Shown in pieces: positions 2,950-24,985 of a stretch of 64,000 nucleotides of DNA. The notes under the pieces are model-generated. The model saw only the letters and a list, made by a program, of their open reading frames with translations, did no database searches and had not been told where the DNA came from. The number at the start of each line of letters is the position of its first letter. Within the stretch, counting starts at the first letter, position 1. This stretch comes from Methanobacteriota archaeon (GTDB lineage: Archaea > Halobacteriota > Methanosarcinia > Methanosarcinales > Methanosarcinaceae). The position numbers and the translations under genes were made by a program. Location: positions 71,009 through 135,008 of the forward strand of contig JAENZL010000002.1 in NCBI GenBank assembly GCA_016841265.1, written 5' to 3'.

Positions 2950-3034
2950 GCGAGGGTTGCCCAGCCAGGTCAAAGGCGCTAGGTTGAGGGCCTAGTCTTG
3001 TAGGAGTTCGTGGGTTCGAATCCCATCCCTCGCA
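2950..3034 (+). tRNA. tRNA-Leu (anticodon GAG), first copy
   Basis: An 85-nucleotide class II tRNA. The acceptor stem is GCGAGGG paired with CCCTCGC (3027-3033), with discriminator A at 3034. The anticodon stem CTAGG/CCTAG encloses the loop TTGAGGG, so the anticodon is GAG (leucine, CUY codons). A long variable arm and a T-loop GGTTCGAATCC follow. The next bases are CCA, so this copy happens to encode its 3' end. In archaea a tRNA-Leu usually stands between rpoD and rpl18e, so this is probably the original copy. Confidence 0.95.
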
Positions 3035-3145
3035 CCAAACTTTCTTTGAAGTGTTGTTTATTCTCTTAATACGTTTTTCTTAAAAGCCTTGTTTCAATTA
3101 ATTCACAGTCAGTGTGTCGTCTTCATTAAGGCGCAAAATCGAAGA

Positions 3146-3230
3146 GCGAGGGTTGCCCAGCCAGGTCAAAGGCGCTAGGTTGAGGGCCTAGTCTTGTAGG
3201 AGTTCGTGGGTTCGAATCCCATCCCTCGCA
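3146..3230 (+). tRNA. tRNA-Leu (anticodon GAG), second copy
   Basis: Identical over all 85 bases to the copy 196 bases upstream, but the bases after the discriminator are CTA, so CCA is not encoded. The similarity extends beyond the gene: a GCGCAAA-ATCGAA-type stretch precedes both copies and AAACTTTCTTTGAAGTGTT follows both. This shows a recent tandem duplication of roughly 196 bp and not an independent isoacceptor. Confidence 0.95.
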
Positions 3231-3762
3231 CTAAACTTTCTTTGAAGTGTTATTCTTTCTCAAAATACATTTTTTCATAACTCTTATCTCAATTCATTCA
3301 CAGTCTGCGTAATTTGTTTTTTTGGTAATTGTTAACTCAAAAAGACGCAACGCTCTTTTGCAGACTCTCCGAAAAATAGCTTTTTACAATGTTGTCCCTC
3401 AAAATTAATATCCCATTTGATTTTTGATGTTTTCTTACTTACTCAGTCCAGCAACGAAATAACCTGTGCAACATATTATTTTGTAACTTTAATTAGCGAC
3501 CGTTATCTTGAAAATCAAGATGTCCACTCGGAAATATGCAGAAGGTGTTCTGTGACAAGTCCTCAATACCTTGTCTAATCCTTCATCCTCAATGTAAATC
3601 AGCCAATCAGCTTCAAACAGATTACATTTTTTCCGACGTATTCGGGGCTTATCGGGACCCTCTATAAATATAAATGGTTTTTATAATAATATTTTCCGAT
3701 ATATTTGGAAAACTATTTATTAAGTAACTCTCTCTTAAAATAAAAAAAGAGGTAGAATCGCC
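3231..3762. other. Spacer between tRNA-Leu and queD
   Basis: No gene is seen in these 530 AT-rich bases. The beginning repeats the downstream flank of the first tRNA. A TATA-like TATAAATATAAA at 3663-3674 and a second AT-rich stretch near 3709 are possible queD promoter elements. A purine-rich AAAGAGGTAG just before the queD ATG may be the ribosome-binding site. The rpl18e-rpl13-rps9 genes expected here in many euryarchaea are missing. Confidence 0.6.
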
Positions 3763-8074: not shown

Positions 8075-9127
8075 TTAGCACACGCGCGGAATGGGATCAC
8101 CTGCAGGCACATCCACGTAACGCATGCCGCCAAAGCGGTTCCTGAGGACAACTTCTCCTTTGTTTTCGGCGCTCACTTCTCCTATGACTGCCGCATCTTT
8201 TCCGTAGGGGTGTTTTTTCAGGATTTCCAGCACTTTTTCTTCGAAGCCGGCTTTTACCCCTATCACGGCTTTTCCTTCGTTTGCGACTTCCAGGGGGTCG
8301 AGGCCCAGCATTTCGCAGGCTGCGGAGACCGCGGGCTTGAAGGGGATGTCTTCTTCTTCCAGAATGATTCCGGCTTCGCTCTTTTCCGCCATCTCGTTCA
8401 GGGCGTTTGCAAGCCCCCCGCGGGTCGGGTCTTTCATGGCGGTTATGACCGCTGCTCCTTCGGGGGTTTTGAGCTCAAGGAGGGGCTCTATGAGCTTCCA
8501 GAGTGGTGCGGAATCCGATACAAGGTCGGTATCGAAGTCAAAGCCTTCCCTGTGAGCCATAAGGGAAATCCCGTGGTCGCCTATGGTTCCCGTGACCAGG
8601 ATTTTGTCTCCCCGGGAAAGCCCTGAGTCCCTTACGGGTTTTTCTGCTGCGGTTATCCCGAGCCCTGCGGTGTTCAGGATGATCGAATCAAGAGCGGCCT
8701 TTTCCACGGTCTTGGTATCCCCCGTGATGATCGGGACGTCAGCTTCGGCTGCCGTGCTGGCCATGGTCTTGATGATTGTTTCAAAGTCGTCCATGGGAAA
8801 ACCTTCGGGTACAATGACCGCACAGGTCAGGGCAAGGGGTTTTGCCCCCATCATCGTCAGGTCGTTGATTGTGCCTGCAACGGCTAACCTGCCTATGTTC
8901 GTTTCCGGGAAAAAAGCAGGGATTATCACATGGCTGTCCGTGGTCAGGACCAGTTCGGAATTCGAATCAAAATTTTCAAGTTTGACCGTGGAGCCGTCGT
9001 CCAGGCTCTCGAGCCCCACCGAACCTGTACTCTTGCTGTTGAAGTTTTTCAGGATGATCTCGCCGATCAGGGCCTGCATCACTTCCCCGCCTGCCCCGTG
9101 TTCCAGGGTAATCGTAGTGGACTTCAT
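8075..9127 (-). CDS. hypE: [NiFe]-hydrogenase maturation protein HypE
   Basis: HypE dehydrates the carbamoyl group delivered by HypF to its C-terminal cysteine, yielding the cyanide ligand of the NiFe site. The 350-residue protein has the N-terminal EHGAGG motif, the DDGSTV and TGDTKTVEK segments of the AIR synthase/PurM fold, and KDPTRGGLANALNEMA near residue 235. It ends in PIPRVC, so the essential last cysteine is intact. It is the last gene of a leftward hypCDABE operon. The spacer to hypB is 86 bases. No hypF lies in this window. Confidence 0.96.
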   Translation of the reverse strand: MKSTTITLEHGAGGEVMQALIGEIILKNFNSKSTGSVGLESLDDGSTVKLENFDSNSELVLTTDSHVIIPAFFPETNIGRLAVAGTINDLTMMGAKPLALTCAVIVPEGFPMDDFETIIKTMASTAAEADVPIITGDTKTVEKAALDSIILNTAGLGITAAEKPVRDSGLSRGDKILVTGTIGDHGISLMAHREGFDFDTDLVSDSAPLWKLIEPLLELKTPEGAAVITAMKDPTRGGLANALNEMAEKSEAGIILEEEDIPFKPAVSAACEMLGLDPLEVANEGKAVIGVKAGFEEKVLEILKKHPYGKDAAVIGEVSAENKGEVVLRNRFGGMRYVDVPAGDPIPRVC

Positions 9128-9213
9128 ACTTACCTCTTCTTCAACCTTTTTTTCCGGATTATCTCTTCCTGCTTTCTCCAGGCTCTTTCCCGTCCCATCT
9201 GCTTACTTTTTCC

Positions 9214-9873
9214 TTACCTGCTTTCGAGCCCTGCCTCAAGGGTGGCTACCCACAGGTCAAGGCTTTCCCTGGAATGTTTTGAGGTCAGAAGAATGGGGAC
9301 TTCGGGGTTCAGGGCCTGGATATCTGATACCATCTTTTCCGGGTCAACATCCACGGCTGCCGCAAGGTCTATCTTGTTTATTATCGCAAGTTCGGCGGTC
9401 TTGAAGATCATGGGGTGTTTCAGGATGATATCGTCTCCTTCGGTCACGCTTACGGCGACTATCCTCAGGTGTTCCCCGAGCTTGAAGTCCACAGGGCAGA
9501 TCAGGTTGCCCACGTTTTCGATGATAAGGAGGTCGGTGTTTTTGAGGTCGATTTCTTTCAGGGCTTTTTCGACAATTTTTGCGTCCAGGTGGCATTCCTT
9601 TCCCGTGTTTGCAGGGACAGTCGGCACCTCAAGTTTCCGGAAACGGGAGGCGTCCATCTCTGCAATAACGTCCCCTGCGATCACCGCTATCCTGTATTTG
9701 TCCTTGAGGGCTTTGATGGCTTCCTCGATCAGGGTGGTCTTTCCAGAGCCTATAGCTCCCATGATGTTCACCGCAAGGACTCCGTGCTTGTCAAGGCTCT
9801 TCCGGTTTTTTTCGGCAAGTTTGTCGTTTGCCGCGAAGACGTCGTGTCCCACATTGATTACGTGCATTAACAT
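9214..9873 (-). CDS. hypB: Hydrogenase nickel-insertion GTPase HypB
   Basis: A SIMIBI-class GTPase of 219 residues that works with HypA to load nickel into the hydrogenase large subunit. The P-loop is GAIGSGKTT near residue 40. VIAGDVIAEMDA and the metal-binding loop NTGKECHLDA follow, with LLIIENVGNLICPVDF as Walker B and NKIDLA as the guanine motif. The N-terminus lacks the CxxCGC nickel motif and histidine stretch of some bacterial HypB proteins, as is common in archaea. MLMHVINVGHDV has two possible starts (9873 or 9867). Confidence 0.96.
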   Translation of the reverse strand: MLMHVINVGHDVFAANDKLAEKNRKSLDKHGVLAVNIMGAIGSGKTTLIEEAIKALKDKYRIAVIAGDVIAEMDASRFRKLEVPTVPANTGKECHLDAKIVEKALKEIDLKNTDLLIIENVGNLICPVDFKLGEHLRIVAVSVTEGDDIILKHPMIFKTAELAIINKIDLAAAVDVDPEKMVSDIQALNPEVPILLTSKHSRESLDLWVATLEAGLESR

Positions 9874-9971
9874 GAATACTCACTTCTCAAAATTATGTAT
9901 AATCGATTTATTTGTAAATATTGTTTTTTAAAAATCGTTTGTGGATGAAAATAACTTTGAAATTATAATTA

Positions 9972-10460
9972 TTAAAATTTGTTATCTGTTTCTGCTTCGG
10001 TTTCTGCTTCGGTTTCTATATCTATCGTCTTAATGATGAGTTCCTGTCCTCCCGTAATCCGGGCAGCTCTCCCGCAGGCTGGACAGTTGAGGGCTGCAAC
10101 GTATTCCAGTAGTTCGCTCTGGTGAAGTCCGGTTTCGTTTCCATTTTCGCTTCCGCTTTTGCCCCCTCCTTCGCCTCTGTCCTCTTCAGACTTGCCGGCT
10201 GGTTTTCCGGGGGTATCGACAGTACCCCTGTACCCGCACTCGCATTCTACGTTTGGGGGGATCATCTCCACCAAAAATTCCGCCCCTTTGGCAATGCTGC
10301 CTTCTGCCAGAACATCGAAACAGAACTTGAGCTGTTCCGGGTTCGTGTGGGTCAGCCTCCCCATCTGAAGGGTCACGGCCCTGACTTCGGATGCCCCGTG
10401 GGCTCTGGCGGTAGCGATCACCTGTTCGTAGATTTCGCAGGCAATGGAGTACTCATGCAC
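9972..10460 (-). CDS. hypA: Hydrogenase nickel chaperone HypA with an acidic insertion
   Basis: HypA delivers nickel together with HypB. The N-terminal MHEYSIACEIYEQV carries the nickel-binding MHE motif. The zinc site is split: CECGYRG near residue 74 and CPACGRAARITGG near residue 126. Between them lies a charged, glycine-rich stretch of about 40 residues (GKSEEDRGEGGGKSGSENGN) that ordinary HypA proteins of about 115 residues lack. The tail repeats ETEAETEAETD, encoded by an 11-12-base DNA repeat. The first codons overlap the end of hypD by eight bases. Confidence 0.93.
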   Translation of the reverse strand: MHEYSIACEIYEQVIATARAHGASEVRAVTLQMGRLTHTNPEQLKFCFDVLAEGSIAKGAEFLVEMIPPNVECECGYRGTVDTPGKPAGKSEEDRGEGGGKSGSENGNETGLHQSELLEYVAALNCPACGRAARITGGQELIIKTIDIETEAETEAETDNKF

Positions 10461-11571
10461 GCCTGCTGCCTCCTATCCTGGCGTACTTGAACCAGTTGTA
10501 GCACATACCCTCCTGGCTGACCATACAGGGGCCTGCCGGGTTTTTTGGGGTGCAGTCCTTTCCGAAGTTCGGGCACTGGGAGGGTTTTGCCTTTCCGGTA
10601 AGGATGGCAGCGCAGATGCAGTGTTTTTTATCCCTGCCTTCGGCTTTTTTCCTGATTTCTCCGAGGGCAGCGGCATATAAATCTTCATGCCTCTTTGCTG
10701 CATCCTGCTCTTCTAACTCCTTTTTCAGGACAAGTCCGGAACTATCTATATTCCCGATGCCTCTCCATTCGGAATCCGCGGTTTCGAAGACCTCCTCCAT
10801 CATTTTAAGGGCAATCAGGTTCCCTTCGGACTTCACAACCCTCGGGTACCCGTTATCAACCCTTGCTTCGCCTTTTTCGATCTGCGCCAGGAGGAGGGAA
10901 ATCCCAAGGAGGACATCATACGCTTCAAACCCACTCACGACTACTGGGAACCCCTGCTCTGCAAGGGGCTCGAAAGGCTTTGTTCCGATGATGGTTGCCA
11001 CATGTCCCGGGGCAATAAAGGCGTCCACTTCGGTGTCCCTGGAAAGCAGTCCTATTGCCGGAGGTGTCCGCTTCTGGGAAACAAGGAGGCTGAAGTTTTC
11101 GGGCACGCCCCGAAGGAGGGTTGCCGCATTGGCAGGGACCGTGGTCTCAAAGCCTATTCCGAAGAAGACCACTTCTTGCTCGGGCTTTTTTTCCGCAAGG
11201 GTTACGGCATCGTCGATGCTGTAGACCATCCTCACGTCCGTACCTTCGGCTTTTGCGTCCAGCAGGCTGCCTGCGGAGCCCGGGACCCGCATCATGTCCC
11301 CGAAAGTTACCACGCTTGCCCCGCTTTTTGCCAGGGCGATTGCAATGTCAATATCTGCTTCGGGGGTGACGCAGACAGGGCAGCCCGGGCCGCTGATTAC
11401 TTCTATTTCTTCCGGAAGCACGCTCCTTAGCCCGTATTTCGCTATGGTCCGCTCATGGGTCCCGCAGACGTGCATTATGCGAAGAGGCCGGGCTGAGGCT
11501 TCTATTCTCTCAAGGAGCTTCTTTTCAATTTCGGGAATCCCCTGTTTCGATTGGGGGTTTTCGGGAGCCAT
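10453..11571 (-). CDS. hypD: Hydrogenase maturation protein HypD
   Basis: HypD is the iron-sulfur scaffold on which, with HypC, the Fe(CN)2CO group is assembled. The 372-residue protein shows MHVCGTHE near residue 33, GPGCPVCVTPEADID, the GFETTVPANAATL region, and the C-terminal cysteine block CICAAILTGKAKPSQC followed by NFGKDC and GPCMVSQEGMC. The frame is open up to 11628, but the ATG at 11571 sits one base after the hypC stop, which argues for translational coupling; an upstream start would overlap hypC by 55 bases. Confidence 0.95.
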   Translation of the reverse strand: MAPENPQSKQGIPEIEKKLLERIEASARPLRIMHVCGTHERTIAKYGLRSVLPEEIEVISGPGCPVCVTPEADIDIAIALAKSGASVVTFGDMMRVPGSAGSLLDAKAEGTDVRMVYSIDDAVTLAEKKPEQEVVFFGIGFETTVPANAATLLRGVPENFSLLVSQKRTPPAIGLLSRDTEVDAFIAPGHVATIIGTKPFEPLAEQGFPVVVSGFEAYDVLLGISLLLAQIEKGEARVDNGYPRVVKSEGNLIALKMMEEVFETADSEWRGIGNIDSSGLVLKKELEEQDAAKRHEDLYAAALGEIRKKAEGRDKKHCICAAILTGKAKPSQCPNFGKDCTPKNPAGPCMVSQEGMCYNWFKYARIGGSRRA

Positions 11572-11572
11572 T

Positions 11573-11854
11573 TTAATCAGTGTCCCTGTTTTCCGGTAAG
11601 GTCTCCTCAAAACCGAGCTCTCCATCATCCAGCCCTGCCATTAGTTTAAGGAGGCGCATGGTTTCTTTCCCTTCTTCTTCCGAGATTTCCGATATGGCAT
11701 AGCCCACGTGGACCAGCACGTATTTCCCGAGCAGGGCTTCGCTTGCCCCTCCCAGCAGATCCATGTTCACGTCTCTACGGACTCCACCCATATCGACGGT
11801 GGCGGTGTTTTCATTGACGATCGCCTTAACTTTTCCAGGAATAGCTATACACAT
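11573..11854 (-). CDS. hypC: Hydrogenase maturation chaperone HypC
   Basis: A 93-residue chaperone that carries the iron complex with HypD and docks to the hydrogenase large-subunit precursor. The N-terminus MCIAIPGKV has the essential Cys2, and the OB-like fold is visible in ATVDMGGVRRDVNMDLL and LGKYVLVHVGYAI. It is the first gene of the leftward hypCDABE operon. The start is fixed by the conserved N-terminus; AGGTAAC just ahead is a weak ribosome-binding site. Confidence 0.96.
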   Translation of the reverse strand: MCIAIPGKVKAIVNENTATVDMGGVRRDVNMDLLGGASEALLGKYVLVHVGYAISEISEEEGKETMRLLKLMAGLDDGELGFEETLPENRDTD

Positions 11855-12602
11855 GTTACCTCTGCTGTTTTTCTTTCAAAATCCGTAAATGTATGAGAAC
11901 CAAATTGCAGGCGAGAATCATTAATAATGCATGAAAATAATCTACGCATAGAAACAATCTGTTTGAACCTTTTCCGGAATTCGGAATTTGCCGGATTTTT
12001 TTATCTTTGTAATTTTTATTTTTGTGAATTTGAGTTCCGTTTTCCGGCAGATCCGGGATTTTTTCCCTTAAGTTCAGGTGCCTTTTCTGTCGGTGCCCGT
12101 GCTTTTTTTAGTAAGTTCTGGCATAAATCCCCGGCATGAATCTTCAGATTGTAATTTTCTCTGTTTCTTCCTATATTAGGTATTCTCTGCACTTTATAAC
12201 CGTTTATCTCTTAGGTTTAGCGGTTTCTCTGCAGTTTACCGTTTGCAGGAGGCCTACATGGCATTCCACAAAGCCGTTTTCAAGCCTTTCACACTGTTTT
12301 TTTTAAAACAAATATATACTCAAAATTATTTTCTGCATTTTTATAGTTCTCTTTTATATCCTTTTTGTTTTCTCTTTTTGATTAAACATTTTAATATTGT
12401 TTTGCTGCTATACTGCCGCATTTCAAAAGTATTTGAATAAATTTATCTATTCTTCTATTATATTTCTCTTTACTAAAAAATTCCCTTCATTTCTCTAAAT
12501 CCTGTCCGGCTTAATTCCGGCTTAATCCCGGCTTAATTCCGGCTACATCTATTTTGAATGACTGCTCCTGATAATTTCCGGAAAAATCATTTTGTGATCC
12601 CC
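11855..12602. other. Divergent spacer between hypC and the first hydrogenase cluster
   Basis: About 750 T-rich bases without a recognisable gene separate the leftward hyp operon from the rightward structural genes, so promoters for both should lie here. Short AT-rich stretches at 12309-12325 and 12433-12470 could hold TATA boxes for the rightward side. A short repeat ggcttaatcccggcttaattccggc is seen in three imperfect copies at about 12508-12545. Confidence 0.5.
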
Positions 12603-13787
12603 ATGAACAAAAACACTTCCGATATATCTGTAAAAACGGAAAAACCCGATTTTTTTAAAATGGATCGAAGAACGTTCCTGAAAACAGCTTGCCTCCTTGG
12701 GGCATCTGCATTTCTGGGAACGTACCGAACAGAAATCGTAAGGGCTCTCGAAACGGCAGAGACAAAACTTGTCTGGCTGCACGGGGCGGAATGCACCGGC
12801 TGTACCGAGTCCCTCCTGAACGGGGGCGACCCCAATGTGCTTTCAGCTCTCCAGGCGCTTGACGCAAAGCTTGCCTATCATGAGACCCTCCTCGCAGGGC
12901 AGGGTATCTTCGTAGACGGGCAACCTGCAAACACGACCGAACTCAATTCCGAGATTCTTGTTGACGAACTCATCGAAGAAGGCAACTACATCCTGATCGT
13001 TGAGGGGGCAATCCCTAACGGGCCGGAGGGGTCAGGGCGCTTCTTCATGGTCGGGAACCGGACTTTCAAGGAACTCTTTGCAAAAGCTGCCGGGAATGCA
13101 GACGCAATCCTTGCAGTCGGAACCTGTGCGGCCTACGGCGGCATTAACTCCGCAAACAGTGCAATTGCCCAGCTTACGGACTACCGGGGAGTGGCTTTTA
13201 CAAAGAATGACAGTTCCGGGGGCATGCTCCAGGAGCTTGGCGTAAATAAACCGGTCATTAACATCCCCGGCTGTCCGGCGCATCCTGACTGGATCTTGTT
13301 GACGCTTAGCGCAGTTATTCTTGGGAAAATCAGAATCCCGGAGGACTTCCCTTCGGTCCTGGACGGTTACGGGCGGCCGAAAGCCTATTTCAGTGAAGAT
13401 GTCCATGACGAGTGTCCCCGCCACGATTACTACGAGAGGGATGAATTCGATACCGAGATTGGTGGGTATAAGTGTCTTTTCAAACTCGGGTGCAAAGGTA
13501 AACGTGCAAATGCGGATTGTTCGATCCGGAAGTGGAACGGCGGGACCAGCATGTGTGTCCAGGCAGGCTCCCCGTGCATAGCATGTGTGGAACCCGGGTT
13601 CCCTGACTCTTCAAGGCCCTTTTACACGCAGGGCAGTGGGGGTTTTGATGGCAGAGAATCCGATGACATAAAAGGTGATGACGGAAAAGGTGATGGTGTG
13701 GATTCCTATGATGGGACTTCCAGTGAGTCTGACTCTTACGACACCGATTCCCGCCGGGACTCTTACTACAGAATAGGAGATGATTAA
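12603..13787 (+). CDS. Vht/Vho-type [NiFe]-hydrogenase small subunit, paralogue without C-terminal hydrophobic segment
   Basis: The electron-transfer subunit of an F420-nonreducing hydrogenase, 394 residues. It has a twin-arginine export signal ([21 protein letters not shown]), the proximal-cluster [24 protein letters not shown], and C-terminal cysteines [28 protein letters not shown]. It differs from the vhtG at 16268 in two ways: the [10 protein letters not shown] block is [10 protein letters not shown], and the last 50 residues are an Asp/Ser/Gly-rich tail ([14 protein letters not shown]) in place of the hydrophobic segment. The ATG at 12603 has GTGATCC at 12594-12600, a good 16S match; the frame opens at 12558. 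Confidence 0.92.
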
Positions 13788-13789
13788 AA

Positions 13790-15586
13790 GTGGTAAACGT
13801 TACAGTCGATCCTCTTACCAGGATTGAAGGGCATCTCCGCCTGTCCACCGAGGTCAACGCCGAAGGTGTAATCACCGATGCCCGGAGTTCATGTTTGCTC
13901 TTCCGGGGTTTTGAGCGTATCCTTCAGAACCAGGACCCCAGGGACGCTGCTCTCCTGACCCAGCGGATCTGTGGGGTCTGTCCTACTTCCCACTCACTAG
14001 CAGCGGCAAATGCCCTTGACCAGCTCTTCGGGGTGGCTGATAGTGTGCCCAAAGATGCCCTTGTGGCAAGGAATATCAACCAGGCGTTAAACACTATCGC
14101 AAGCCACGCAACCCATATCTATGTGCTCTGGGGGCCTGACCTTGCAAACCCCGCCTACCGCGATGTCCTTACTCCTCTCGGGGAAACCGGAACTGCTGTC
14201 TGGAAGGAGCTTTTGGGCAGGTTTGCCCCTATCAGCTACAGGCTCGACGGGAACACCATCCCTGCAGGCAGCTCCTACCTTGCAGCAATCCCTGAAAAGA
14301 AACGCTTGCATGAAGCCATTGCAGTCATCGGCGGAAAGATGCCTCACCAGGTCACTTCCTATCCGGGTGGGTACACCTACAAGCCAACAATCGCAGACAT
14401 CGGCAAACTTTCCTCTTATTACTCTCAGGTAATGGACTTTGTTTCCAGCTACACCTTAAGAGTCCCCTTCGAGACCTGGATTGAAAACACTTATAAGGCA
14501 AGTTCTCCGCAGAGTGCCGTTTCTTTCCTGCTCGATCAGCTCCGGGGGCTTGTGGACAGCAGTATTTCCGGTTCCAACGGCAATAACTTCAGCAGGGAGG
14601 CCGGTTGGGGAGACGCGGAATTCTACGCCGCATTCGGTTCCGAACTTGTGGGCGAAACCCTCCTCGGGCTTCCGGCAAGCCTGAAACACGATAGGACCGG
14701 TGGGTACAGTGACTCTTCGAAGATCAACTTCCTTGCCTACGGGGCTTTCTACAGGCCTGAAAATGGGGATGGGTATGACCCGAACAGCCCGGCAGGTGAC
14801 CGTTTCCAGACCTCCGGGATCGTAACTGGCAACCTTGAGTACAAAAACTTCGATGCCAGCAAGATCACTGAAAGCATTTCCCATTCCTTTTATGAAGGTT
14901 CGGAAGAGCTCCACCCCTCGAAGGGGGAAACAAACCCGATTGGTGACCCTGCAGAAATCCGCTATGACAGAGGATCCGACAGCCGCTATACCTGGGCAAA
15001 GGCTCCGAGGTATGAAGGAATGCCCTGTGAGGTAGGCCCTCTCTCCCGCCTGCTTGCTATGAAAGAGCCCCTGGTGACCGGACTGGCCCGGGCTTTCAAA
15101 GACAACGGATACTCCCCTGCCAACACCTACACCAGGATGATTGCCCGTATCCAGGAAACCGCAATTATTGCAAACGAGCTCTTGAAATGGGTAACCGAAG
15201 ACTACGATCCAAATGGGAAGATTTCCGTGCACACTGACCTTTCCATGGCAAAGGACTCCGAAGGCATGGGGCTCTGGGAAGCTCCTCGTGGAGCTCTCGG
15301 ACACTGGGTTTCCACAGACAGTAACTCTAAAGTCGTAAGCTACCAGCCCGTAGTCCCGAGTACCTGGAACTTCTCCCCGAGAGACAGCGCAGGAACTCCC
15401 GGTCCTGCGGAACAGGCTTTGATAGGAACAAGGATTAACGCTGTGGAGAACTCTCTCGGTGTCGATTACTCCAACCCGGTCAATATCCTGCACGTCGGAA
15501 GGTCATATGATCCCTGTATTGCATGTGCTGTCCATACCCTCGACCTCACGGGGAAAAACGCTCCGGGCATTTTAAGAATAGTATGA
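13790..15586 (+). CDS. Vht/Vho-type [NiFe]-hydrogenase large subunit, paralogue
   Basis: The catalytic subunit, 598 residues. NiFe ligands are present in [11 protein letters not shown] near residue 60 and DPCIACAVH near residue 575. The 15 residues after that histidine ([16 protein letters not shown]) are the peptide normally removed by a VhtD-type protease. The start is GTG at 13790, whereas the vhtA copy at 17425 has ATG. The sequence from 13835 to 14181 is identical to 17470-17816, and similarity stays very high to about 14500 before synonymous differences appear. No cytochrome b gene follows; the next gene is a second vhtG. Confidence 0.95.
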
Positions 15587-15591
15587 AATTG

Positions 15592-15700
15592 AATTGTAAA
15601 GGTAAGTAAGAGGAATTGTAAAGGTACGTAAGAGGAATTATAAAGGTACGTAAGAGGAATTTTAAAGGTGCGTAAGAGGAATTGTAAAGGTAAGTAAGAG
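15592..15700. repeat. 22-bp tandem repeat after the first hydrogenase cluster
   Basis: Five imperfect copies of aattgtaaaggtaagtaagagg start six bases after the large-subunit stop. Copies differ at single positions (GTAAG/GTACG/GTGCG). There are no spacers between units, so this is not a CRISPR array. Confidence 0.85.
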
Positions 15701-16267: not shown

Positions 16268-17422
16268 ATGGTCATTGGAAAAAAGAATTTGGTTCATACA
16301 CTGGAGAGTATGGACTTTTTAAATATGGATCGGCGTACCTTTCTAAAAGCCGTGGGCGCAGTTGGTGCAACGGCATTTCTAGGTACCTACAAAACGGAGA
16401 TTGTCAGCGCTCTCGAATTTGCAGAGACAAAGCTTGTCTGGTTGCATGGGGCGGAATGCACGGGTTGTTCCGAGTCCGTCTTAAACGGTGGCAACCCTGA
16501 CATCGTCCAGGCGATTACCAGGCTTAACGTTAATCTTGCTTACCACGAGACCCTCCTTGCCCAGCAGGGACTTTTCGTGGATGGGAAGCCTGTAAACAGC
16601 TCCGAGCTGAACTCCGAGATCCTCGTTGACGAACTGATCGAAGAAGGCAACTACATCCTGGTCGTTGAAGGCTCAATCGCAAACGGGCCTGATGGTTCCG
16701 GGCGCTACTGCGTGATTGGGAACCGAACCTTCAAGGAACTCTTTTCCAAAGCTGCAAAGAACGCTAACGCTATTCTTGCGGTCGGGACCTGTGCCGCCTA
16801 CGGCGGAATCAACTGTGCGGACAGTGCAGTTTCCAAGGTTACCGATTATAGGGGAGTGGCTTTTACAAAAGAAGACAGCTCTAAAGGTATGGTCCAGGAA
16901 CTTGGCATCCGCAAGCCTGTAATCAATATCCCCGGGTGTCCTGCACACCCTGACTGGATCCTCCTGACCCTCGGGGCGGTAATCCTCGGAAAGCTCAAAA
17001 TTCCTGACGATCTCGATACAGCTCTGGACAGGTACGGAAGACCCAAAGTTTTCTTCCCTGAAGACCACACAGTACACGAAAACTGTCCCCGGCGCGGCTA
17101 CTACGACCGCGGGGAATTCGATACGGAAATCGGAGGGGAAAAGTGCCTCTGGAAGTTAGGCTGCAAAGCTCCTTACACCCACTCGGACTGTGCTCTGCGC
17201 CGCTGGAACGGTTCCGTAAGCATGTGCACCCAGGCAGGTTCTCCCTGTATCGCCTGTGTGGAGCCCGGGTTCCCGGATTCTGCAAGGCCCCTGTATGTTG
17301 AAGCTGAGGACAAGGGCCTGTTCCTCGGGGCAAATATCGATACCGTCTCTAAGGTCGCAGTCGGTGCATCCGTGCTTGCCGCAGGTGTACATGCAGTGCG
17401 CAGAATGAAAGGAGATGATTAA
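16268..17422 (+). CDS. vhtG: Methanophenazine-linked [NiFe]-hydrogenase small subunit VhtG
   Basis: A 384-residue iron-sulfur subunit that passes electrons from the NiFe centre to cytochrome b, on the outer face of the membrane. The Tat signal [21 protein letters not shown] is near residues 19-40. Cluster cysteines appear in [49 protein letters not shown] and [12 protein letters not shown]. After the last cluster a hydrophobic segment [18 protein letters not shown] could anchor or contact the membrane. vhtA follows two bases after the stop, with GGAGATGAT inside the end of this gene as its ribosome-binding site. Confidence 0.95.
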
Positions 17423-17424
17423 AA

Positions 17425-19221
17425 ATGGTAAACGTTACAGTTGATCCCCTTACCAGGATTGAAGGTCACCTCCGCCTGTCCACCGAGGTCAACGCCGAAG
17501 GTGTAATCACCGATGCCCGGAGTTCATGTTTGCTCTTCCGGGGTTTTGAGCGTATCCTTCAGAACCAGGACCCCAGGGACGCTGCTCTCCTGACCCAGCG
17601 GATCTGTGGGGTCTGTCCTACTTCCCACTCACTAGCAGCGGCAAATGCCCTTGACCAGCTCTTCGGGGTGGCTGATAGTGTGCCCAAAGATGCCCTTGTG
17701 GCAAGGAATATCAACCAGGCGTTAAACACTATCGCAAGCCACGCAACCCATATCTATGTGCTCTGGGGGCCTGACCTTGCAAACCCCGCCTACCGCGATG
17801 TCCTTACTCCTCTCGGAGAAACCGGAACTGCTGTCTGGAAGGAGCTTTTAGGCAGGTTTGCCCCTATCAGCTACAGGCTCGACGGGAACGCCATCCCGCC
17901 AGGCAGCTCCTACCTTGCAGCAATCCCTGAAAAGAAACGCCTTCAGGAAGCCATTGCAGTCATCGGCGGAAAGATGCCCCACCAGGTCACTTCCTATCCG
18001 GGTGGGTACACCTACAAGCCAAACATAGCAGACATCGGCAAACTTTCCTCTTATTACCTTCAGGTAATGGACTTTGTTTCCAGTTACACCTTAAGAGTCC
18101 CCTTCGAGACCTGGATTGAAAATACCTATAAGGCAAGCTCCCCCCAAAAGGCCGTGAACTTCGTGCTCGAGCACCTCCAGGGGCTCGTGGACAGCAGTAT
18201 TTCCGGTTCCAACAGCAACAACTTCAGCAGGGAAGCCGGCTGGGGTGACACGGAATTCTACGCCGCATTCGGTTCCGAACTTGTGGGCGAAACTCTCCTC
18301 GGGCTTCCGGCCAGCCTGAAACACGACCGTACCGGCGGATATAGCGATCCCTCAAAGATCAACTTCCTGGCTTACGGCGCTTTCTACAAGACTGAAAACG
18401 GGGATGGGTACGATCCGAACAGCCCGGCAGGCGACCGTTTCCAGACCTCGGGTATCGTGACCGGAAACCTTGAGTACAAAAACTTCGATGCCAGCAAGAT
18501 CACCGAAGGCGTCTCACACGCTTTCTATGAAGATACCGGGGAACTTCACCCCTCAAAGGGTGAGACAAACCCGGTCTCAGACCCGGATGAAATCCGCTAT
18601 GACCGCGGCTCCGAGAGCAGGTATACCTGGAGCAAGGCCCCGAGATATGAAGGCATACCCTGTGAAGTCGGTCCCCTTTCCCGCCTGCTCGCTATGAAAG
18701 AGCCCCTGGTGACCGGTCTGGCCCAGGCCTTCAAGGATAACGGATACTCTCCGGCAAACACCTACACCAGGATGGTGGCCCGCATCCAGGAGATTGCCAT
18801 TATCGCAAATGAGCTCCTTAAGTGGGTAACTGTTGACTATGACCCGAACGGCAAGATTTCCGTGCACACTGACCTTTCCATGGCGAAGGACTCCGAAGGC
18901 ATGGGGCTCTGGGAAGCTCCTCGCGGAGCTCTTGGGCACTGGGTCTCCACAGACAGTAACTCAAAGGTTGTCCGCTATCAGCCTGTAGTCCCGAGTACCT
19001 GGAACATGTCCCCGAGGGACGGTGCAGGTGTCCCGGGTCCGCTTGAGCAGGCCCTGATCGGGTCAAAGATCAATGCGGCGGAAAACGCACTCGGTATCGA
19101 TTATTCTAACCCTGTTAACATCCTTCATATCGGCAGGTCCTATGACCCGTGCGTTGCCTGTGCGGTTCACACCATTGACCTTTCCGGGAAAAACGCTCCT
19201 AAAACCTTAAGACTTGTATAA
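17425..19221 (+). CDS. vhtA: Methanophenazine-linked [NiFe]-hydrogenase large subunit VhtA
   Basis: The catalytic subunit, 598 residues, of the complete vhtGACD operon. It binds the NiFe centre through [11 protein letters not shown] and DPCVACAVH; the tail after the last histidine ([16 protein letters not shown]) should be cut by VhtD. It is the same length as the large subunit 3.6 kb upstream. The two genes are identical over 347 bases from 17470, very similar to about 18130, and then differ at many silent sites. The start ATG is fixed by the conserved [15 protein letters not shown]. Confidence 0.96.
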
Positions 19222-19235
19222 GGAGATGATCTTTC

Positions 19236-20054
19236 ATGAGAGGCAAAAACAACCCGATGGTTGTTGAGCGCTACACGGTACTCGACAGGGTGGCTCACAC
19301 CACCCATGCTTTTGTAATGGTAGTGCTTATCCTGACCGGGTTAAAGATCTATGCGGGCTGGGACTTCATGAGCTTCCACAACGCCAGAGCCCTCCACATG
19401 ATCATGGTTCCGGTTCTCCTTGCGGTGAACTGGATTCTGATCCCCTACAACATCTTCTCTGCAAGTGAGGGCGGAGTTCAGGCAAAAATGGAACATTTCA
19501 TGGACACGTATATCTTCGGCCCTGAAGATGCAGCGCGCCTGAAAGGAATTGTGTTAAATTTCTTCGGGAAGGGCGACTATCCGGCATTCACTATTTATGA
19601 TGAGGTTGAGGGGCATTACAAGACCAAGCTTCACCCCTTGATGAAGATCCTTATCGTGCTGGAAGGCACTGCGATCCTGGTCATTGCAGTTTCGGGAATT
19701 GTCTTATACAAGCTTGATTGGGCTATTTTCGGGCTTCCCGTGGGTTCCTGGATCCTTTCGGCAGGGGACCTGATGGCACCTTTCTTAGGTATGTCTTCAC
19801 TGCAGTTAATGAGGGCGATTCACCTGCTCATGACCTACTGGTTCGTCTTTGAACTGGTTGTGCATATCGGGATTCTTGAGTTTGACCCCCATATATGGAA
19901 GTACTACAAGGCAATCTTCTGGTCGGGAAAGGAAAACCTTGAAGATAGGCACTTCGTTGACCTCGTGGGCCATGAACCGGGGGACAACGTGCCTGAAAGA
20001 AGCCTTGTCTGGCACGATTCATCCGAAAAAGTCCTGGATACCGTAAAAGAGTAG
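19236..20054 (+). CDS. vhtC: Hydrogenase cytochrome b subunit VhtC
   Basis: A 272-residue membrane cytochrome b that anchors VhtGA and reduces methanophenazine. Hydrophobic segments include [73 protein letters not shown] and [18 protein letters not shown]. Histidines suited to haem binding occur in [26 protein letters not shown] and ELVVHIG. GGAGATGATC sits seven bases before the ATG and matches the 16S tail well. Only 14 bases separate it from vhtA. Confidence 0.95.
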
Positions 20055-20131
20055 ATTCAAGAGTGAGGTTTATAGGCGTATCTCGCCAATATAGGCATAT
20101 CCTCTCTAAAAAATAAAACGTCCTGAATTAA

Positions 20132-20212
20132 CCTGTGTTGACCAAAATACTTGTGTTGACCAAAATATCTGTGTTAACCAAAATATCTGTGCTAACCAAA
20201 ATATCTGTGCTG
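20132..20212. repeat. 18-bp tandem repeat before vhtD
   Basis: Four to five copies of ctgtgttgaccaaaatat lie between vhtC and vhtD. Because 18 is a multiple of three, the vhtD frame stays open through them and would encode LTKISV repeats if a GTG or TTG upstream were used. The conserved vhtD start lies just downstream. Confidence 0.85.
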
Positions 20213-20221
20213 AGTGAGAAT

Positions 20222-20707
20222 ATGTCTATATTACATGCTCCAGTCCGAATCCTGGGCTGTGGAAGCCCTTTCATGGGAGATGACGGTGTCGGCTTGAAGG
20301 TTGTTGAAGCCCTTCAAAAAACGGAACTTGAAGGGTTTGAAGGTCTCGAAATAGTAGACGCTGGAGTTTGCGGCCTGGACCTTCTAAACCTGCTGGACGG
20401 CGCCCGGAAGGTTATAATTGTTGACGCGATCCTGACCGGCGCCCGGGCAGGTACTATCCACCGGCTTTGCGGCCTGGACCTGATAGCAGGCACTGCACCC
20501 CACGACATCATTTCGGTACACGACATGACCATATCCGATGTCCTGAAGATAGGGGAACAGGTACAGGAACTCCCGGAAATCGTGGTCTTCGGCATAGAAA
20601 TAGGAAAGCAGGCTACGGAAATTACAATGGAAATAAGCCCTGATGTGCTTGAAGCCGTAAACGAGGTAGTCCGGTTGATAAGGGAAGAAGTTTCTGATCA
20701 GGTTTGA
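20222..20707 (+). CDS. vhtD: Hydrogenase maturation endopeptidase VhtD
   Basis: A 161-residue protease of the HycI/HyaD family that removes the C-terminal peptide of the large subunit after nickel is inserted. The N-terminal GCGSPFMGDDGVG and the following EIVDAGVCGLDLL and HDMTISD supply the nickel-sensing acidic and histidine residues. The start ATG at 20222 is chosen because the family begins a few residues before GCGSP; upstream codons are repeat DNA. It is the only such protease gene in the window, so it may serve all three large subunits. Confidence 0.93.
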   Translation: MSILHAPVRILGCGSPFMGDDGVGLKVVEALQKTELEGFEGLEIVDAGVCGLDLLNLLDGARKVIIVDAILTGARAGTIHRLCGLDLIAGTAPHDIISVHDMTISDVLKIGEQVQELPEIVVFGIEIGKQATEITMEISPDVLEAVNEVVRLIREEVSDQV

Positions 20708-21066
20708 TCCTGAACTGCTTTTTCCTTCTTTTCTTTTCTTTTCTTTTCTTTTCTTTTTCTTTTCTTTTTCCGGAATTAATCTTTTCTTTCCCTTGACTTG
20801 AAAGTGGCCTTCCGCCTGTAAGGGTAATGGCATTTTGGCATCCACTTGCAATAATGGCTTTCCGGAAAGGTTTGGCCTGAAAATGTTTTTAAATTGATAA
20901 ACTTTTTATGGAGGCAAAACGCCCTGCGAAATATGGGTGACCTTCTCTTTTTTTGCTTGAATAATCTTCTTTTTTTTAGGTAAGCTATTTATCAATTGGT
21001 TTATGATATTAATAATATTCAGGATTTTCTTATGTAATAATATTCTACTCTGTGTGGAGGTGTGGA
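20708..21066. other. Spacer between vhtD and vhxG
   Basis: No gene is present. Right after vhtD comes a pyrimidine tract made of TTTTC/TTTTCT pentamers (about 20723-20770), which could act as a T-rich terminator. The remainder is AT-rich, with possible promoter elements near 20890-20905 and 20985-21010 for vhxG. Confidence 0.5.
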
Positions 21067-22377
21067 ATGGGTATAGAAAACTCCCCTGACCGATTCAAGC
21101 ATCTTGATTTTATGAAGATGGACCGGCGAACGTTCCTGAAAGCCGTAGGGGCTCTGGGAGCGTCTTTGTTTTTGCAAACTTATCGAAGCGATGTTGTTAA
21201 AGCCCTGGAATTCGCGGAAACCAGGATTGTCTGGATCCATGGCGGGGAGTGCACGGGTTGTTCCGAGTCCCTGTTAAACGGAGGTGAGCCTGATGTTTTG
21301 CAGGCCTTTGACCGCCTGAACATCCGGCTTGAATATCACGAGCTCCTGCTTGGCCAGCAGGGGATTTACGTGGATGGGGAGATGGTAAACACTTCCGAAC
21401 TCAATTCAGAAATTCTTTTTGAAGAAGTTGTCAAAGAGGAAGGTTATATCCTGGTCGTGGAAGGGGCTATTGCCAATGGTCCGAACGGTACCGGGAAGTA
21501 CATGATTCTGGGTGGCAAGACTTACAAGGATATTTTCCGGAAAGCCGCTGAAAATGCTTCTTTAATCGTAGCAGTAGGGCAGTGTGCAACGAACGGGGGG
21601 GTTAACTCGGCGGACAGTGATATCAAGGACCTTATGGACTTCCGCGGGGTTGCCTTTACCATGGAAGACGGGGAGAAAGGAATGCTGCAGGAACTGGGAA
21701 TCGAAAAACCCGTCATCAATATTAACGGCTGTCCCCCGCACCCGGACTGGATGCTCCTGACCCTGGGAGCTGTGGTGCTGGGGAAGATCAAAATTCCCGA
21801 CGACCTCCCTGAGGTTCTGGATCAATGGCTGCGTCCGAAAGTCTTTTTCCCTCCTGATTCTGTCATCCACGATAACTGCCCTAGAAGGGGGTTCTACGAC
21901 AAAGGAGAGTTTGATACCGTTGTAAGCGGGGAGAAATGCCTCTGGAAACTCGGGTGCAAGGCTCCCTATACCCATGCGGACTGTGCCATACGTCGCTGGA
22001 ATGGCTACCACAGCCTCTGTCCTCAGTCAGGGTCCCCGTGTATCTCCTGCGTATCTCCGGGTTTCCCTGACAGTTCGCGTCCCTTTTTCCAGGAAATTGA
22101 GGACGTGGGGATTGCAGGGACAAATATCGATACCGTTGCGAAAGTGGCTATCGGGGCGTCCCTGCTTGCGGTAGGAGCCCATGCTATCCGGAGAGTCGCT
22201 GTGAAAGAGGCTCCTGAACGAAAAGAGCCGGAGGAAGCGCCGGGCAAAGAGCCGGAGGAAGCGCCGGGCAAAGAGCCGGAGGAAGCACCGGGCAAAGAAC
22301 CGGAGGAAGCGCCGGGTAAAGAGACAGAAGGAGCTCCATATAAAAAAGCGGGCAAAGATGAAGGAGAGGATCAGTAA
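21067..22377 (+). CDS. vhxG: [NiFe]-hydrogenase small subunit VhxG
   Basis: A 436-residue Vht-type small subunit. The Tat signal is [21 protein letters not shown]. Cluster cysteines are kept in [49 protein letters not shown] and LCPQSGSPCISC. The hydrophobic segment VAKVAIGASLLAVGAHAI is present, followed by a tail of about four KEPEEAPG repeats. GGAGGTG at 21056-21062 is followed by ATG at 21067; the in-frame GTG at 21052 is less likely. The vhxA ATG follows the stop directly. Confidence 0.94.
   Translation: MGIENSPDRFKHLDFMKMDRRTFLKAVGALGASLFLQTYRSDVVKALEFAETRIVWIHGGECTGCSESLLNGGEPDVLQAFDRLNIRLEYHELLLGQQGIYVDGEMVNTSELNSEILFEEVVKEEGYILVVEGAIANGPNGTGKYMILGGKTYKDIFRKAAENASLIVAVGQCATNGGVNSADSDIKDLMDFRGVAFTMEDGEKGMLQELGIEKPVININGCPPHPDWMLLTLGAVVLGKIKIPDDLPEVLDQWLRPKVFFPPDSVIHDNCPRRGFYDKGEFDTVVSGEKCLWKLGCKAPYTHADCAIRRWNGYHSLCPQSGSPCISCVSPGFPDSSRPFFQEIEDVGIAGTNIDTVAKVAIGASLLAVGAHAIRRVAVKEAPERKEPEEAPGKEPEEAPGKEPEEAPGKEPEEAPGKETEGAPYKKAGKDEGEDQ
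22223..22331 (+). repeat. 24-bp in-frame tandem repeat in vhxG
   Basis: About four and a half copies of gagccggaggaagcgccggg plus caaa encode KEPEEAPG repeats in the C-terminal tail of VhxG. The units differ by single silent changes. The number of copies is likely to vary between strains. Confidence 0.9.
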
Positions 22378-24165
22378 ATGGTCGAAGTTACGGTTGATCA
22401 GCTTACCCGGATTGAAGGGCATTACAGGATCGACACCCAGGTCAACGAGGAAGGGGTGATTACGGAAGCCCAGAGCATGGGGCTTATGCTCAGGGGGTTC
22501 GAACGTTTCCTCCAGCACCAGGACCCCCGGGATGCTGCCCTTCTTACCCAGAGGATCTGCGGGGTCTGCCCGACTTCTCACTCCCTGGCAGCGGCAGGTG
22601 CTCTTGACCAGCTTTTCGGAGTGGAGGATGCCGTTCCAAAAGATGCCCTTGTGGTGCGTAATATCCACCAGGGTCTGAACACGATTGCCAGCAACACGAC
22701 CCATATCTACGTGCTCTGGGGAACAGACCTTGCAAACCCGGCCTACAGGGATTTGTTCGGAAACTTCGGGGATACGGGAAAAGCCGTCTGGGACGAGTTG
22801 CTTCGGAGGTATGCCCCGATTAGCTACAGGCTAAATGGCGTTGATATCCCTGTCGGCGTCAGTTATGCGGCTGCTATCCGGGAAAAGCGGCGGCTGCATG
22901 AAGCTATTTCCCTTATGGGAGCTAAGATGCCCCATTCGGTCCTGGCACATGTGGGAGGCGTAACCTACGGCCCCACCCTTGCGGACATCGGACAGCTTGC
23001 CTCCTATTACTGGCAGGTGATGGATTTTGTCGAGAATTTTGCCCTGGGCGTTTCCCCGGAAACCTGGATCGAAAACACCAGGTTTGCGAGTTCCCCCCAA
23101 AAAGCCGTGAACTTTGTGGTTGACCGCCTGCAGGAGCTTACTGCCGCCTCCCTGGTCTCGAACGACTTTTCCCATGCCGCAGGCTGGGGGGACGTGCCTC
23201 TTCTTGCGGCTTTTGGCTCCGAACTAATAGGGGAGGAAGTCCTGGGGCTACCCGCAAGCATGAAACTTGACCGGACAGGGGGTTACAGCAACCCTGATAC
23301 TATTGGCTACCTCTCCTACGGGGTTTTCTACAAACCCGAGGATGGAGACGGCTACGACCCTACCAGCCCTCCGGGTTCCAGGGTTATTTCTTCAGGGTAC
23401 ATGGACGGGAACCTCAAGCTGCATAAGTTCGACCACAGGAAAATTTCCGAAAGCATAGCCCATTCCTTTTATGTTGATTCCGAAGCCGACAGGTTCCCCT
23501 GGGAAGGAGTCACCGAACCTGAGCCCGAACCTGATGAAATCGATTACTCCAGGGGTACGGAAAGTCGCTATTCCTGGATAAAAGCGCCTAATTACGACGG
23601 GATGCCCTGTGAACTCGGCCCCCTTTCCCGCATGCTCATCATGGAAGACCCGCTCATCACCGGACTTGCACAGCTTTTCAGGGAAAACGGCTACCCTGCT
23701 ATCAACACCTACATCCGTATGCTTGCCCGGGCACAGGAGATCCTGGTTGTTGCATCCGAGCTTCTTAAATGGGTAACCGTAGACCTTGATCCCAGCGGCA
23801 AATTTGCCGTACCCACCGACCTGTCCATGGCGAAGGACTCCGAAGGCATGGGACTCTGGGAAGCTCCCAGGGGTGCTCTGGGCCACTGGGTTGCAACCGG
23901 CCCTGACTCCAGGGTAACGCTCTACCAGGCCGTGGTCCCGAGCACCTGGAACCTGGCCCCGCGAAACACTGCAGGTATCCCCGGTCCCGTGGAACAGGCT
24001 CTCCTGGGGAACAGGATTTCGGCTGCCGAAAACGCTCTCGGTGTGGATTATACTAACCCGATCGGCATTTTCCATACGGCCCGTTCCTTTGACCCCTGCC
24101 TCGCCTGTGCCATCCACACCATTGACCTTACCGGAAAAGAGGAAGAGAGGGTCAGGGTGATCTGA
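22378..24165 (+). CDS. vhxA: [NiFe]-hydrogenase large subunit VhxA
   Basis: A 595-residue catalytic subunit. NiFe ligands are intact in [11 protein letters not shown] and DPCLACAIH, with [15 protein letters not shown] as the C-terminal peptide to be removed. It is clearly more divergent from the other two large subunits than they are from each other, for example [13 protein letters not shown] in place of [16 protein letters not shown]. In known Methanosarcina the vhx genes are reported as little or not expressed, but nothing in this coding sequence is broken. Confidence 0.95.
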
Positions 24166-24181
24166 TCGGGGAGGTCGAAAT

Positions 24182-24985
24182 ATGGTGGGGAAAAATATGG
24201 ATGAAAATTCCGGTAGTGCTGGAAATTCCTGTAGTTCAGGAAGTCCCGGGGAAAGCCTGGTTGTGGAACGCTATACGAAGATGGAGCGGGTCACACACCT
24301 GATTCACCTGCTTTCCATGCTGACCCTCGTTGTTACCGGGCTTAAGATTTATCTGGGCTGGGACTTCATGGATTTCGATAAAGCCCGCGGGCTGCATATG
24401 ATTGCAGTTCCCTTCTTCCTGGCAGCGAACTGGATCCTTGTTCCTTACAACGTTTTTTCGTGCAGGGGTGAGGTCTGCTCCCCAAACGACAGGTTGAGCC
24501 ATTTCATCGAAAGTTACATCTTCGGGCCCGAGGATGCCGAACGCCTGAAAGGCATTGTACTCAATTTTTTCGGCAAGGGGAAATATCCGGCATTTACGGT
24601 TTATGATGCTCAGGAGGGGCATTACGTTACAAAACTGCACCCGCTGCTTAAGCTCCTTATCATTTTCGAAAGCTCTGCAATTCTTCTGATCGCCGTCACG
24701 GGAATCGTGCTCTACAACCTGAACTGGTCTCTCCTCGGGCTTCCCATAGCTCAGTGGATCATTGCGATTGCCGGAATTTTTGCCCCTTACCTGAATGTGT
24801 CGGCTCTGGGCCTGATCCGTATCGGGCATCTGGCTGCAACTTACTGGTTCCTGTTTGAATTCGTGGTTCATGTGGGAATCCTTGAACTCGATCCCAAAGT
24901 CTGGAAATATTACAAGTCGATCTTCTGGTCAGGGAAAGAGGACCTTTCGGACAGGAATTTTGTTGAAGTGGTCAATAAGAAGTGA
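24182..24985 (+). CDS. vhxC: Hydrogenase cytochrome b subunit VhxC
   Basis: A 267-residue relative of VhtC with the same plan: [74 protein letters not shown] and [18 protein letters not shown]. Haem-ligand candidates are in [20 protein letters not shown] and FVVHVG. The N-terminus has about 25 extra Ser/Gly-rich residues ([14 protein letters not shown]) absent from VhtC. GGGGAGGTC lies a few bases before the ATG. There is no vhxD; the stop codon falls inside a short tandem repeat. Confidence 0.93.

Follow-up and report, generated by a model that had tools for sequence, protein, structure and literature searches.

How does a hydrogenase of the Vht type dispose of its electrons when its usual membrane partner is not encoded beside it? 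In membrane-bound hydrogenases, the C-terminal helix of the small subunit docks on a cytochrome b, and Vht is the textbook H2-to-methanophenazine enzyme. In methanogens, according to comparative work on ANME archaea, the cytochrome b subunit VhtC invariably clusters with VhtAG (PMC9012536). The 64-kb stretch of Methanosarcinaceae DNA analyzed here (the window) holds a small and a large subunit, G1 and A1, that depart from this pattern. A conserved VhtGA pair that jointly lacks VhtC, the membrane anchor and the cytochrome-facing residues would imply a hydrogenase that faces outward and uses a different electron partner, in this case in a genome without a recognized cytoplasmic F420-reducing hydrogenase. 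With a probability of about 0.62, we consider G1-A1 to be such an enzyme, that is, a Vht duplicate adapted to serve as an extracytoplasmic [NiFe] hydrogenase that is untethered and has an acceptor other than VhtC.

Along the window, the divergent hyp genes are followed by G1-A1, vhtGACD and a GAC cluster without D (Table 1). An earlier note on this DNA had described a third Vht-type pair at 12603-15586 as the first of three clusters, with its Tat signal, cluster cysteines and NiFe ligands intact, and these coordinates and sequence statements are right. The Tat signal of G1 matches TIGR01409 above the cut-off, the distal ligands H268, C271, C291 and C297 and the medial ligands C306, C325 and C328 are kept, and A1 has both of its ligand motifs intact, [10 protein letters not shown] and DPCIACAVH. 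The G1 start at 12603 is the conserved one and is favored by an SD-like GTGATC at about 12593-12598; an alternative start at 12558 was rejected as misplaced. Likewise, the missing C gene and the missing hydrophobic C-terminal segment were correctly recognized. The next gene on the same strand is vhtG at 16268, with neither a cytochrome b (C) nor a D gene between it and A1, and the intervening 682 bp are gene-free and contain a tandem repeat. The tail of G1 comprises 53 residues (342-394), of which 70% are Asp, Ser, Gly or Tyr, and carries a net charge of -10; its best 15-residue hydropathy is -1.1, whereas copies 2 and 3 reach +1.9. A frameshift as the origin of this tail was rejected, since the other two frames of G1 encode no VhtG-like anchor. 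AlphaFold models were of low confidence (mean pLDDT 46-48).

Table 1. Coordinates of the G1-A1 pair, its surroundings and the multihaem cytochrome genes discussed in the text (window positions unless a locus is named)
Feature	Position	Strand
hyp maturation genes (HypE to HypC), transcribed away from G1	8075-11854	-
G1, small subunit without anchor, 394 aa, with Tat signal	12603-13787	+
Twin-arginine motif RRTFLK, G1 residues 22-27	12666-12683	+
Distal-cluster face, G1 residues 262-307	13386-13523	+
Altered loop [10 protein letters not shown], last distal to first medial ligand	13491-13520	+
Asp/Ser/Gly/Tyr-rich C-terminal tail in place of hydrophobic segment	13626-13784	+
A1, large subunit (598 aa) with every NiFe ligand and a C-terminal maturation peptide	13790-15586	+
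Tandem repeat, 22 bp x 5, in A1/vhtG gap, outside any gene	15591-15700	+
Ordinary vhtGACD operon	16268-20707	+
vhtGACD, small subunit	16268-17422	+
vhtGACD, large subunit	17425-19221	+
vhtGACD, cytochrome b	19236-20054	+
vhtGACD, protease	20135-20707	+
Third cluster, GAC without D, equivalent to vhxGAC/vhoGAC	21052-24985	+
Multihaem cytochrome c genes beside C-less VhtGA, Methanolobus-like genomes and G005	L129 7319-8548; L131 8063-9301; L180 3917-4579	

Further repeats lie in the neighboring clusters: in the third small subunit, the C-terminal tail contains a 24-bp x 4 repeat (EAPGKEPE; 22222-22323), the number of which varies across genomes, and 18-bp repeats (20133-20209) occupy the 5' end of the vhtD open reading frame, whose conserved start is probably the later MSILHAP. 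The window also carries two closely spaced tRNA-Leu genes, both with a GAG anticodon (2950-3037 and 3146-3231).

In a survey of 112 Methanosarcinaceae genomes, the G1-A1 type was found in four: three of the window's genus and Methanosarcina sp. KYL-1. The orthologs are 94% (G003), 83% (G002, whose contig matches MAG BL5_bin.6) and 80% (G096, which matches KYL-1) identical to the window's copy. The pair sits between hypC and vhtG in three of the four genomes, namely those with sequence beyond A1, as the G003 contig stops after G1. The four orthologs form one clade with 100/100 support, which nests in the Vht tree close to the VhtG proteins of this and related genera, and G1 is 65% identical to VhtG. 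Between the window's genome and KYL-1, dS is 1.04 for G1 and 1.14 for VhtG; these similar values fit vertical descent, the simplest history, and a recent horizontal transfer of the pair was rejected on the same grounds. In our best reading, G1-A1 is an old VhtGA duplicate. In the fourth genome of the genus (G001, probably Methanosarcina sp. MTP4) the pair is absent, and the spacer between hyp and vht aligns with both flanks and retains about 170 bp of the 3' end of A1, in which DPC has become GPC. This spacer is a deletion scar, the only relic of the pair found upstream of vhtG in other genomes; G1-A1 is thus dispensable in G001.

The G1 core has dN/dS values of 0.06 (G003), 0.12 (BL5) and 0.07 (KYL-1), compared with 0.05-0.10 for VhtG, which indicates purifying selection as strong as that on VhtG; the tail evolves faster (0.4-0.6) while keeping its composition. 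G1 is intact in all four genomes at a dS of up to 1.0, and sequencing error or decay was rejected as the source of the features of the pair. A1, by contrast, is kept VhtA-like by gene conversion: A1 and VhtA (A2) share identical runs of 347 bp in the window (from position 55 of the codon alignment) and 425 bp in KYL-1, which differ in place and hence represent independent conversions, whereas the longest identical run between G1 and VhtG is 24 bp at most. While mis-assembly of a metagenome-assembled genome could mimic such conversion in the window alone, KYL-1 shows it too. No more than three positions distinguish the A1 proteins from 11 VhtA orthologs; the specialization therefore lies in G1.

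There, 13 residues are fixed that are absent from 83 other copies, nearly all of them VhtC-linked, and 10 of the 13 fall within residues 262-307, which surround the four distal ligands. The changes in this region include a two-residue deletion before H268, N270E, R274H, D278E, P300K and H303N. Their enrichment at conserved columns (Fisher p = 1e-4) is to be read as indicative, because the region was picked post hoc, after the altered block had been pointed out in the earlier note. This block, CKAPYTHxDC in other copies and [10 protein letters not shown] in G1, is a real difference, with CKGK[RH]ANADC common to all four orthologs; its assignment to the distal cluster is less exact, as it joins C297, the last distal ligand, to C306, the first medial one, and is therefore the distal-to-medial loop. 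Taken together, the substitutions indicate that G1 was remodeled at the distal cluster, its electron-exit face.

The family-wide comparison covered all small subunits with readable surroundings in the 112 genomes. The hydrophobic segment and the PY in the loop are kept in 78 of 78 copies followed by VhtC, while 13 of the 15 C-less copies have lost both. Mcellales49 and G099 had also been taken for C-less, but their cytochrome b genes had been missed; Mcellales49 was removed from the C-less count by hand, leaving these 15. The 13 belong to the G1 clade, to a Methanococcoides-like clade with its Methanosalsum-like sister, and to G005. Since sequences within a clade are non-independent, the rule rests on about three losses, and it is not strict, as two Methanolobus-like second copies are C-less and yet keep both anchor and PY block. 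The Methanococcoides- and Methanosalsum-like copies (L124 4146-7575, L137, L164-L168 and L136) are VhtGAD clusters without cytochrome b, anchor or twin arginines (MDWHKFLK); as the arginines are lost, these are probably cytoplasmic Vht derivatives. Judged by predicted Tat motifs, exported-looking C-less copies are confined to the G1 clade, G005 and the Methanolobus-like genomes.

If not VhtC, what accepts the electrons? The 842 kb around the Vht loci contain only three multihaem cytochrome genes, each adjoining a C-less, Tat-bearing pair in other genera, although two of these three loci represent one lineage; the L129 and L131 cytochromes carry PGF-CTERM. No multihaem cytochrome was found near G1-A1 within the 64-kb window, so that naming its acceptor amounts to a guess. 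The window's genome does encode Rnf and an MmcA-like cytochrome, unlinked to G1-A1. MmcA is located in the pseudoperiplasm and works in the range of -100 to -450 mV (PMC11024163). A multihaem cytochrome of this kind is the leading candidate. An NrfA-like multihaem cytochrome was considered and rejected: it occurs in three genomes with the pair and is absent from G001, but KYL-1 lacks it as well, and it is present in many genomes that yielded no Vht, which makes the link unspecific. In two genera, these NrfA-like genes (L195, L196, L197, L198, L221 and L222; in the window's genome G000:C25:41136-42182) carry a TAG codon in frame at one shared alignment position (W-D-R-TAG-Y or R-L-Y-x-x-TAG-Y), and further haem motifs follow downstream of it; the relative L223 has a Met at this position. 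Possibly, the TAG represents pyrrolysine in a cytochrome.

Three other explanations have to be weighed against an untethered enzyme. The earlier note had suggested that the pair might borrow VhtC from the next operon, in which case G1-A1 would dock there and reduce methanophenazine like a normal Vht. The adjacent vhtC gene and the near-identity of A1 and VhtA speak for this; even so, we regard it as unlikely, because the anchor and PY block lost in G1 are kept by every one of the VhtC-linked small subunits and its changes are concentrated on the electron-exit face. Equally improbable in our view is a redundant copy that is gradually being lost, with A1 serving as a spare VhtA or conversion donor and G1 doing little. 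Such a copy would explain why the pair occurs in so few genomes, why G001 has deleted it and left a relic, and why A1 is homogenized with A2, but it is hard to square with a G1 that stands outside this conversion, is constrained by purifying selection to the degree seen in VhtG and has stayed intact over such distances.

Somewhat less probable still is that the untethered pair acts not in uptake but as an H2 sensor or as an H2-evolving electron valve. Hydrogenases are reversible, and the window's genome has no FrhA above the cut-off, so that its three Vht-type clusters are its only recognized NiFe hydrogenases; however, no partner gene is linked to G1-A1, and the known sensor hydrogenases, of the HoxBC type, lack a Tat signal and reside in the cytoplasm. 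A soluble enzyme, by comparison, fits the fact that anchor, PY block and C gene were lost together, as well as the export signal, the purifying selection and the exit-face changes. The earlier note had offered a soluble extracytoplasmic hydrogenase with another acceptor as its other option, and this part agrees with all sequence findings, its location, activity and acceptor being predictions.

In sequence, the pair has lost its membrane helix and VhtC gene but kept Tat export, the three Fe-S clusters and the NiFe site. A1 would be matured by the Hyp proteins and the neighboring VhtD, and the folded dimer would be exported by Tat into the pseudoperiplasm. There, it would exchange electrons at its distal cluster with a soluble or surface redox protein rather than with VhtC and methanophenazine, most plausibly with MmcA or another multihaem cytochrome c. 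The enzyme probably hands electrons from H2 to another carrier outside the cell. The acidic, disordered tail may help the pair to dock, to stay beneath the S-layer or to remain soluble in salt. If true, H2 would be tied directly to extracellular electron transfer in methanogens of the Rnf/MmcA type. More tentatively, and with the odds somewhat against it, Methanosarcinaceae may have repeatedly freed Vht from cytochrome b, with the exported versions feeding multihaem cytochromes in an H2-driven extracellular or pseudoperiplasmic path that bypasses methanophenazine.

How does G1-A1 compare with known systems? With the Vht/Vho enzymes of Methanosarcina (vhtGACD) it shares homologous G and A subunits, the Tat signal, all ligands and a nearly identical large subunit, but these have VhtC and an anchor, whereas G1-A1 has neither and differs in its distal face, PY block and acidic tail. 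M. barkeri encodes vhxGAC in addition to vhtGACD, and Vhx appears to be inactive (PMC6030560), which speaks against a functional G1-A1. Like G1-A1, the Vhx of M. barkeri and M. acetivorans is an extra Vht-like copy without a D gene of its own; however, its gene set includes C (PMC6030560) and its counterpart in the window is the third cluster, and an identity of G1-A1 with published Vhx was rejected for these reasons. By gene content, the C-less pair is distinct from it. A genome taken to be M. acetivorans (G074), in which FrhA is present, has GACD and GAC only. The Methanococcoides-like GAD clusters and the vhtGADF listed for strain WeN5 (Methanosalsum; PMC3017947) resemble G1-A1 in the loss of C, anchor and PY block. 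Unlike G1-A1, the Methanococcoides-like clusters have lost the twin arginines, kept D and form an independent branch. The soluble periplasmic [NiFe] and [NiFeSe] hydrogenases of Desulfovibrio, whose partner is cytochrome c3, resemble the design predicted for G1-A1: they are Tat-exported dimers without anchor or cytochrome b, and their small subunits end in PFY. Among solved structures, soluble periplasmic NiFeSe hydrogenases come closest, and their chains end in PFY where the G1 tail starts. They nevertheless probably form a separate lineage. G1-A1 nests inside the Vht tree and has the extra tail, and G1 matches the Desulfovibrio chains more weakly than it matches VhtG. In summary, G1-A1 would work like a soluble enzyme of the Desulfovibrio type, yet it seems to descend from Vht, two defining features of which it lacks.
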